DNA of 47,185 bases from Nitrospira sp. (lineage in GTDB: Bacteria; Nitrospirota; Thermodesulfovibrionia; Thermodesulfovibrionales; SM23-35), in NCBI GenBank assembly GCA_016873615.1, contig VGWX01000009.1, forward strand, positions 1 through 47,185, written 5' to 3'. Shown here piece after piece: positions 1 to 44,266 of this stretch (positions are counted from its first letter, which is position 1; every line of letters begins with the position of its first letter). A program made the translations under genes and the position numbers. The notes under the pieces are model-generated. The model was not told the origin of the DNA and searched no databases. It saw nothing but the letters and a program-made list of their open reading frames with translations.

Positions 1-110
1 CGAGTCGCTCCCGCACTCAGGCGGGTTCGCTGAGGAGAAGAGGTGACCCGACAAGCGGGAATGACATCCATGTAGCCTTACTTTTGCACTTATTAGTATA
101 AAGGAGAAGG
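1..110. repeat. Right end of a composite palindromic repeat
   Basis: Bases 1-66 match the reverse complement of about 5777-5842 almost base for base, including the stretch with CGAGTCGCTCCCGCACTCAG, and end in GGGAATGACA. Bases 75-105 then resemble 12900-12928, the right outer arm of the composite repeat described there (CCTTACTT...TTAGTA). The element is cut by the window edge and ends just before the asnS remnant. Confidence 0.75.
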
Positions 111-5775: not shown

Positions 5776-5920
5776 TTGTCATTCCGACTTGTTCGGTCGC
5801 CTCTTCTCCTCAGCGAACCCGCCTGAGTGCGGGAGCGACTCGCCGAGGAGAGAATCCTTCTTGCTGCACTTTCTTCAAACATTCTATTGAAGAAGGATTC
5901 TGGACAAGCCAGAATGACAA
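5776..5920. repeat. TTGTCATTC...GAATGACAA palindromic repeat (long copy)
   Basis: The element has exact 9-bp terminal inverted repeats, TTGTCATTC at 5776 and GAATGACAA ending at 5920. Its left half (5777-5842) is the inverted match of window bases 1-66. The right half contains GGATTCTGGACAAGCCAGAATGACA, also seen at 18700-18724. It separates the rubrerythrin gene from the cytochrome gene and puts a strong fold-back in any shared transcript. Confidence 0.85.
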
Positions 5921-12117: not shown

Positions 12118-12279
12118 CTATATAGTGTCTGTCCATAAAGTTGGTATTCTTGCCTTTTGTTTGTCATTCCGGCTTGCCCGGAATCTTTCCGATGGCTTCA
12201 CAGAAGGATTCCCGACGCGCTTCACTTGCGGGAATGACAGCCTTTGGATTTTTCCATGCGTTTTAAAACAGACTATATA
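12118..12279. repeat. Nested palindromic repeat with TTGTCATTCC core
   Basis: The core 12161-12239 runs from TTGTCATTCC to GGAATGACA with two inner hairpins (GGCTTGCCCGGAATC; GATTCCCGAC...GCGGG). Imperfect outer arms, CTATATAGTGTCTGT at about 12117-12131 and ACAGACTATATA at 12268-12279, flank it. This fills most of the 281-bp gap between the divergent radical SAM and Cys-rich protein genes. Confidence 0.75.
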
Positions 12280-12772: not shown

Positions 12773-12925
12773 GTTACTAATGAGGTCATAAGCAATGCCT
12801 CACAATTGTCATTCCCGCAAGCGGAGCGCGTCGGGAATCCTTCTGAAAACAAAGAAAGATTCCGGACAAGCCGGAATGACAAACCATCGACTGAATGTGG
12901 CCTTACTTATGAACTCCTTAGTAAC
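12773..12925. repeat. Composite repeat: TTACTAA outer arms around a TTGTCATTCC element
   Basis: The outer arms GTTACTAATGAGGTCATAAG (12773-12792) and CTTATGAACTCCTTAGTAAC (12906-12925) are inverted repeats matching at 18 of 20 positions. The inner element 12806-12882 has TTGTCATTCC...GGAATGACAA ends. The right arm is almost identical (19 of 20) to 43022-43041, where the inner part is a C-rich palindrome instead. Confidence 0.85.
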
Positions 12926-13434: not shown

Positions 13435-13582
13435 TTTAGTAATCGTAATTCTTTGGTGAATGGCATTATATCATAACCCCACCTTGCCTCCCCTTATCTT
13501 AAGGTGAGGAATAACCCCCTCTTAAATTAAGAGGTGGAAGGGGGAGTTATCCGATCCCACGTTTTACTGAAGTATTACTAAG
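13435..13582. repeat. Degenerate composite repeat with C-rich palindrome core
   Basis: TTTAGTAAT near 13435 and ATTACTAAG near 13574 are inverted and resemble the TTACTAA arms at 12773 and 42915. Inside are ATAACCCC...GGGGAGTTAT-like arms and two hairpins (CTTATCTTAAGGTGAG; CCTCTTAAATTAAGAGG). It fills the gap before korA. Confidence 0.65.
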
Positions 13583-18638: not shown

Positions 18639-18725
18639 TTGTCATTCCCGCTTGTCGGGAATCTCTCTGGTGTTTTTGTGATTACAGGGCGATCAAGAAA
18701 GATTCTGGACAAGCCAGAATGACAA
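18639..18725. repeat. TTGTCATTC...GAATGACAA palindromic repeat
   Basis: An 87-bp element with exact 9-bp terminal inverted repeats. The left half folds as CATTCCCGCTTGTCGGGAATC and the right half as GATTCTGGACAAGCCAGAATG. It lies between the AsmA-like gene and the YdbL-like gene. Confidence 0.88.
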
Positions 18726-42914: not shown

Positions 42915-43041
42915 CTTACTAATGAGTTCATTGGTAAGCGATCAAATTTGCATAACTCCCCGCCGCCCCCTCTTAACTTAAGAGGGGGTTGGGGGGCGTT
43001 ATTAAAAAGAATGTCATCATACTTATGAACTTCTTAGTAAC
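42915..43041. repeat. Composite repeat: TTACTAA outer arms around a C-rich palindrome
   Basis: The outer arms CTTACTAATGAGTTCAT (42915-42931) and CTTATGAACTTCTTAGTAAC (43022-43041) are inverted. The right arm matches 12906-12925 at 19 of 20 positions. The inner part is AACTCCCCGCCGCCCCC...GGGGGGCGTT with a TTAACTTAAG-centred hairpin, not the TTGTCATTCC element found at 12806. It sits between thiG and thiE inside the operon. Confidence 0.85.
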
Positions 43042-43053
43042 TCTCAACTGTTA

Positions 43054-43851
43054 TTACAGCATCCCCTCTATCGGACTGCTTGCCGTAGCGTAGAGTTTTT
43101 TGGGAATCCTTCCTGCCTTATATGCAAGCCTTCCGGCAATAACAGCATGTTTCATAGCTTCTGCCATTGCAATCGGGTCTTTTGCGCCTGCTATGGCGGT
43201 ATTAATCAGCACAGCATCACATCCGAGTTCCATGGCTATGGCTGCATCAGATGCTGTCCCAACGCCCGCATCAACAACAATCGGAAGCTTTACTGTTTCG
43301 AGTATTATCTTTAAGTTGTAAGGGTTCCTTATGCCGAGACCTGAACCGATAGGCGCGCCGAGCGGCATGATTGCAGCAGCGCCGGCATCTGCAAGTCTCT
43401 TTGCCATTATGGGGTCATCGTTTGTATAGGGAAGAACGATAAAGCCCTCTTTAGCAAGGATCTCGGTCGCCTGTAGAAGCCCCCATGTATCCGGGAAAAG
43501 GGTTTTTTCATCTCCGATCACCTCGAGTTTTATAAGGTCGGAAATGCCTGCCTCCCTTGCAAGACGCGCATACCTCAATGCATCTTCAACAGTATAACAA
43601 CCTGCGGTATTCGGTAATATTTTATATTTGCCGGGATCAATATAATCGAGCAGATTTTCAGACTTTCTGTCAATGATATTAACCCTCCGGACAGCAACAG
43701 TCACAACATCTGCGCCTGAGGCTTCAATGGCCATTTTTGTCTCATTAAAATCCTTGTATTTCCCTGTCCCAACCCAGAGACGGGATTCAAATTCAATGCC
43801 CCTGATAATTAAATTATCATCCATATTCCTTACTCCCTTCGAACCCTGCAT
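43054..43851 (-). CDS. thiG: Thiazole synthase
   Basis: 265 residues, building the thiazole ring from deoxyxylulose phosphate, dehydroglycine and ThiS thiocarboxylate. [67 protein letters not shown] and [10 protein letters not shown] are present. ATG 43851 has GGAGG 7 nt upstream (over the thiS stop); ATG 43824 (MDDN) also has a fair site and may be the true start. Neither thiH nor thiO is in the window, so the glycine-derived donor enzyme is elsewhere. Confidence 0.96.
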
Positions 43852-44055: not shown

Positions 44056-44090
44056 AAAAACAAAAAACCGCATCCCTGAAGGGATACGGT
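44056..44090 (-). terminator. Riboswitch expression-platform terminator before thiS
   Basis: On the minus strand, ACCGTATCCC-TTCA-GGGATGCGGT is a 10-bp stem with one wobble, followed by TTTTTTGTTTTT and then directly the thiS ATG. It is a textbook intrinsic terminator downstream of the TPP aptamer, so control is probably by premature termination. Confidence 0.9.
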
Positions 44091-44100
44091 CCACCTCCCA

Positions 44101-44189
44101 TTCCCTACGACGGCATTGTCCGCATCAGGTTCAAGGGGTCTCTCCTGTGTGTACAGGAGACTCTCAGGCTTTTGGCCTCCCCCAAGGGT
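44101..44189 (-). ncRNA. TPP riboswitch (thi-box) aptamer
   Basis: Read on the minus strand, CTTGGGGGAGGCC...GCCTGAGAGTC is followed by GACCCCTTGAACCTGATGCGG and AATGCCGTCGTAGGGA, the conserved thi-box parts in the usual order and spacing. A variable arm, CTCCTGTACACACAGGAG, lies between them. It is upstream of thiS-thiG-thiE-thiC and should switch the operon off when TPP is plentiful. Confidence 0.95.
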
Positions 44190-44266
44190 ATTGTTAACTA
44201 TAGATTAAATGCTATTTTTCTGTCAATGAATACCATCAGAAAAATGACTGCTATTGAATCTGATAA

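Follow-up and report, generated by a model that had tools for sequence, protein, structure and literature searches.

The repeat RUP of Streptococcus pneumoniae, known together with IS630-Spn1, is a ~100-bp non-coding MITE that has IS630-like ends and inserts at TA (PMC2229807). Correia/NEMIS is also an IS630-related MITE, and carries an optional internal sequence that gives rise to forms of about 107 and 155 bp (PMC2229807, PMC2817692). For CGTC-tagged REP dimers no dedicated transposase is known, and their means of spread has been called open; in A. variabilis and H. neapolitanus REP dimers lie inside long palindromes, REP-free outer palindromes not being found and no transposon being assigned (PMC3733652).

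The window analysed here, 47,185 nucleotides in length, makes up the entire contig C9 of a genome of 2.9 Mb in 216 contigs, and contains palindromic cores enclosed by inverted outer arms, an arrangement termed frame A. Like RUP, frame-A elements are short, non-coding MITEs with IS630-type ends and TA insertion; they differ in having another end sequence and interchangeable palindromic cores, and no resident IS with frame-A ends was found in the window's family. With Correia/NEMIS they share the optional interior of an IS630-related MITE, although the optional part of the latter is one 50-bp segment with an IHF site rather than exchangeable REP-like dimers. The cores resemble CGTC-tagged REP dimers in being mostly head-to-head short-hairpin dimers with an outer YGTC tag, but TGTC is the prevailing form of the tag, and the dimers are carried in transposon frames with target duplications. 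A palindromic dimer within a longer palindrome recalls A. variabilis and H. neapolitanus, whereas here there are frames consisting of terminal inverted repeats (TIRs) only, a frame can hold any of several cores, a core can occur in two frames, and the parent is an IS630 element. Frame A is judged to be of a known kind, an IS630 MITE like RUP, with the interchangeable REP-like cores as its new feature. As far as the literature searched shows, three things are new: the assignment of the frame to a transposon, frames that hold no core, and the occurrence, within a single genome, of two frames combined with two cores; the search returned nothing on MITEs of Nitrospirae or on the arm sequence. Taken together, it is very probable that the arms are IS630-type TIRs, the composites MITEs, and the cores separate REP-like palindromes that were rarely captured and then co-amplified.

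The following features of the window bear on frame A, with the strand given where one is assigned.

12775-12923: frame-A MITE with a GTCATTCC-type core, including both TA duplications (12775-12776 and 12922-12923; element proper 12777-12921), the TA rule being carried over from a related copy whose empty site is available
12774-12798, plus strand: left arm, CTAAT-type end (TTACTAATGAGGTCATAAGCAATGC), 0 mismatches to the arm pattern, PWM 35.3
12900-12924, minus strand: right arm, CTAAG-type end (TTACTAAGGAGTTCATAAGTAAGGC), 0 mismatches to the arm pattern, PWM 42.1
12807-12881: core of two inverted TGTCATTCC-tagged hairpins (REP-like dimer), with spacers of 8 and 18 bp to the 25-bp arms
42916-43040: frame-A MITE whose core is a single C-rich hairpin (about 42952-43002)
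1-99: right part of a high-copy frame-A MITE, with its arm at 75-99 on the minus strand; the contig starts inside the core
13435-13582: C-rich palindrome without frame-A arms, not a frame-A member

A preliminary description of this DNA had reported one family of outer arms around three palindromic cores, together with a further right arm near the contig start. At 12773-12925 the inverted arms are indeed present, complementary at 23/27 bases and enclosing a TTGTCATTCC...GGAATGACAA core, and the same arms, complementary at 18/27 bases, surround the C-rich hairpin at 42915-43041. The arm near the contig start is also real (75-99; PWM 32 against a null 99th percentile of about -1) and belongs to a high-copy subfamily with copies of 169-198 bp. 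The supposed third copy at 13435-13582 lacks the arms: its flanks are complementary at only 9/27 bases, the 8-bp TTAGTAAT/ATTACTAA are oriented opposite to frame-A arms, and the best arm PWM score is 4.7 on one side and -12.7 or lower on the other. In the window, the arm pattern TTACTAANGAGNTCATAAG has five matches with up to three mismatches, where shuffles predict 0.19. The terminal G/C of 'GTTACTAA...TTAGTAAC' belongs to the flanking DNA, outside the element proper (12777-12921), and 3-bp duplications considered earlier (CTG/CTG at 12773, CTC/CTC at 42915) were dropped once the boundary had been fixed at TA.

The arms occur at dozens of further loci, some with and some without cores, and are thus not confined to the loci from which they had been described. 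Genome-wide counts refer to pattern searches and selected stretches of the genome, and the genomes compared are mostly fragmented MAGs, those of the window's GTDB family matching contigs named Nitrospirota or Thermodesulfovibrionales. In the window's genome the arm pattern, at up to three mismatches, has 74 matches compared with nine for a reversed control. Of 20 genomes in the family, 12 contain frame-A arms, which also occur in 95 stretches of MAGs from three phyla (Nitrospirota, Desulfobacterota and Nitrospinota). In all, 103 distinct paired elements of 50-318 bp were collected, short, non-coding and dispersed: the core is clearly of GTCATTCC type in 77 and C-rich in 19, four are bare, core-free frames of 50-61 bp, and three have uncertain or other interiors. 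TA is present at both ends of 91 of the 103, a frequency that is not independent evidence since arms with TA were used to construct the search matrix. Long arm pairs in G015 and G012, considered as autonomous copies, proved to be paired short MITEs around ordinary genes. In Deltaproteobacteria MAGs (L133, L188, L202, L240-L261) frame-A arms surround a different interior of ~250 bp (GGCGACCGAGGGGCGAGTCCTG...), which is a further core class. The ends of integron attC sites follow RYYYAAC...GTTRRRY and neighbour an integron integrase; compared by eye with this consensus, the frame-A ends TTACTAA...TTAGTAA do not match.

The identity of the arms is indicated by a Deltaproteobacteria MAG (G020), in which a transposase starts within ~60 bp after a frame-A arm (JACRCM010000150.1, L140). 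The transposase reads ...RKLDHKTLEAIRMRAV..., and pieces of it match HTH_23, HTH_33 and NCBIfam transpos_IS630. This IS is known only as contig-end halves, comprising four left and three right ends, and the L140 copy is frameshifted. Its left end is TACTAATCAGTTCATAAGTAAGTAGACAT in three copies and TACTAAGGAG in one; its right end, TACTAAGGAGTTCATAAGTATCTATACAT, presents a CTAAG-type arm after the transposase C-terminus ...FFQSETTRYAA. The IS ends equal the arms, so frame A has ends in common with an IS630-family IS, as is characteristic of IS630-derived MITEs. An intact, 52%-identical relative of the G020 transposase contains a DDE_3 domain (E=6e-36) and has a similar C-terminus, and a 40%-identical IS630 relative (L230, in genome G023) has a similar end, TTACTAATCAGTGCATAA. 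The IS ends are of two types, CTAAT on the left and CTAAG on the right, and 54 of 66 MITEs likewise have one of each (p about 8e-8 against a 50:50 null). An intact IS630-type transposase of 341 aa with DDE_3 was seen in a Nitrospinota MAG (L228:303-1328, minus strand); its ends differ (CAGTCCATAATAG...CTATTATGGACTG), though the MAG also has frame-A arms.

No transposase with frame-A ends was found in the window's genome or its family (20 genomes), an absence that is weak evidence as MAG assemblies tend to drop multicopy IS. IS630-type DDE matches occur in four of the 20, none with frame-A arms nearby, and a relative of the L140 transposase in only four of 40 arm-bearing genomes. The lineage would therefore either have lost the transposase, carry it on DNA missing from the assembly, or encounter it through transfer.

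Evidence for movement came from joining the flanks of elements in G016 and related genomes across the element, and searching for the joined sequence in sister genomes. Four G016 element flanks are contiguous in the sister genome G015, at 93-98% identity. One of these (L071) is an exact empty site, the only one of its kind, in which GATTGTTTAAGTT has become GATTGTT-TA-[element]-TA-AGTT, the TA of a TTAA target being duplicated exactly. A second (L205:3667) has a near-exact TA duplication with one extra T, L205:3989 and L081 show local differences, and one further comparison, at 82% identity, is consistent. The target-site duplication of TA typical of an IS630-derived MITE is thus found here, and the unit that differs between sister genomes is arms and core together. 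In the window's genome, five copies of the high-copy subfamily are 98.5-99.5% identical and have unrelated flanks. Judged from these comparisons, frame-A MITEs appear to have jumped recently in this Nitrospirota lineage. The same observations make it highly improbable, indeed the least probable of the explanations weighed, that the palindromes are immobile, conserved structural elements such as terminators or mRNA-stability hairpins, selected for RNA structure. Such a role would accord with very stable RNA folding (z -7.3 and -8.1) and with the intergenic position of the window copies examined, but inverted repeats give stability anyway, and neither the empty sites in sister genomes nor near-identical copies with unrelated flanks would be expected. 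Mobility leaves room for a secondary regulatory effect of frame-A elements.

The same cores also occur in a second frame, termed frame B, and the relevant features in the window are as follows.

12120-12278: frame-B MITE (AGTGTCTGTCCATAAAG...AAAACAGACT, 12124-12274), flanked by ATAT at each end and holding almost the same core
12162-12239: frame-B core, homologous to the core at 12807-12881 when one of the two is reverse-complemented
18640-18724: GTCATTCC-type core around which neither frame A nor frame B is detectable
5777-5919: GTCATTCC-type core whose frame has decayed or is missing (p=0.09 for the A-like score on the left)

The frame-B element adjoins the frame-A MITE of 12773-12925 at a distance of 0.5 kb, and the alignment of their two cores starts and stops at the core edges. 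Frame B, found in 14 of 20 genomes, has AGWGTCTGTGTATAAA ends, unlike those of frame A. At the junctions of 28 paired copies, direct repeats do not exceed 4 bp, a length reached in 14 of them (AATT, AAAT, ATTT, AAGT and AACT), so that frame B is not a TA-duplicating element. It carries both kinds of core, GTCATTCC-type and C-rich. The C-rich core CACCCTCACCCTTGCCCTCTCCC has 17 close matches in the window's genome, five of them in frame A, eight or nine in frame B and about three in neither; among 19 sampled GTCATTCC core pairs, selected largely because frame A was missing, seven are in frame B and about 10 have no detectable frame. These bare cores could be elements whose frames have decayed.

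A third inverted frame (GAGGCTGTGTCGCAAT...ATTGCGACACAGCCTC), with a GTAG-type REP, was observed inside a frame-B core (L314:1638-1893 compared with L322:1382-1516), where comparison with an uninterrupted copy at another place in the genome shows that it inserted with a TTG duplication; a similar frame lies inside L017.

Within a class the position of the core is fixed. In most GTCATTCC elements one 25-bp arm is separated from the core by 17-20 bp and the other by 8-9 bp, and these spacers are kept, despite diverged spacer sequences, across many genera and several phyla, whereas core orientation relative to end type varies (38 vs 16). Such a register implies that arms and core move as one unit, and argues for one founding composite per class over repeated insertions; each core class looks like a rare founding composite followed by amplification of the whole unit. 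The cores might instead be mobile by themselves, repeatedly entering, or being swapped within, a passive host palindrome, and this reading, although unlikely, has several observations in its favour: the same cores with sharp edges in two unrelated frames, unframed cores, TIR-only frames, and one clear nested insertion, that of the third inverted-repeat element with its TTG duplication in a frame-B core. It is difficult to reconcile with spacers of about 17-20 and 8-9 bp held within a class over many genera and several phyla, with the lack, by eye, of direct repeats flanking cores within frames, and with sister genomes that differ by whole units. The preliminary description had proposed a modular design in which small elements insert into, or swap cores within, a host palindrome. 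Modularity is borne out, in that frame A holds several unrelated cores or none and the same cores recur in frame B with sharp junctions; repeated insertion or swapping is not, since the outer palindrome is itself a transposon, as its IS630 ends, TA duplication and empty sites indicate, and the core register is fixed per class.

The cores are mostly head-to-head hairpin dimers tagged with YGTC, mostly TGTC, and mobilisation of REP/BIME elements by a REP-associated tyrosine transposase (RAYT), as had also been suggested, was considered for them. Y1_Tnp genes are common (19 of 20 genomes, with six matches in the window's genome), and the paired inverted hairpins of the cores resemble REP dimers. 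This explanation is nonetheless very improbable, as frame-A arm pairs and C-rich cores are absent from all 30 RAYT loci, the density of TGTCATTCC at such loci (five in 89 kb) does not exceed what 123 in 2.9 Mb genome-wide predicts, and TA duplication with inverted IS630 ends is not a feature of IS200/IS605. The scan of RAYT loci thus revealed no association of the cores with RAYT genes, and the arms, to which the suggestion had applied, are absent from the 30 Y1_Tnp loci scanned. GTAGCCGCA, a candidate RAYT-linked REP, was rejected as it is missing from these loci too. The six RAYT-like matches of the window's genome lie on C101, C60, C22, C16, C7 and C73.

In the favoured explanation, that of IS630-type MITEs with captured cores, the outer arms would be the ~29 bp TIRs of an IS630-type transposon, with a CTAA tip and an ACAT inner edge, and the composites of 50-270 bp its non-autonomous MITEs. 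An IS630-type DDE transposase, presumably supplied in trans, would cut at the ends, and the whole unit of arms and core would insert at TA, preferably TTAA, duplicating the TA. The cores would represent a separate family of REP-like palindromic dimers, with TGTC/CGTC-tagged hairpins or C-rich hairpins, each of which would rarely have been captured into frame A, by palindrome insertion, template switching at hairpins, or recombination, and then amplified along with it. The same cores would also have been captured by the second MITE frame (AGWGTCTGTGTATAAA ends, 4-bp duplications), and they also occur in neither frame. Sequence comparison shows the equality of IS ends and arms, the TA duplication, the empty sites, the movement of arms and core as a unit, and the sharing of cores by two frames. 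A broader suggestion, which falls a little short of probable, is that YGTC-tagged and C-rich REP dimers, without a transposase of their own, spread as exchangeable cargo in at least two unrelated MITE frames; in this combinatorial 'frame plus core' arrangement, the hairpin core may favour transposition or the exchange of cargo.

As the comparison of sister genomes indicates, REP-like dimers move as cargo of IS630-type MITEs, and a second MITE family, which has another target duplication, contains these dimers as well. This suggests a testable way in which ownerless palindromic repeats could spread. Frame-plus-core elements explain part of the nested-palindrome intergenic DNA of Nitrospirota MAGs, and probably some of the assembly breaks in these MAGs. 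In the window's genome, about 15 frame-A arm matches lie within ~250 bp of contig ends (among them window 1-99, C17:38380, C58:110, C77:10552, C79:10447, C82:10096 and C171:3071), so that the assembly probably breaks at frame-A repeats. An Rfam scan of the window gave a sole match, a TPP riboswitch at 44085-44193 on the minus strand (66.9 bits), upstream of the minus-strand ORF 43054-43851.
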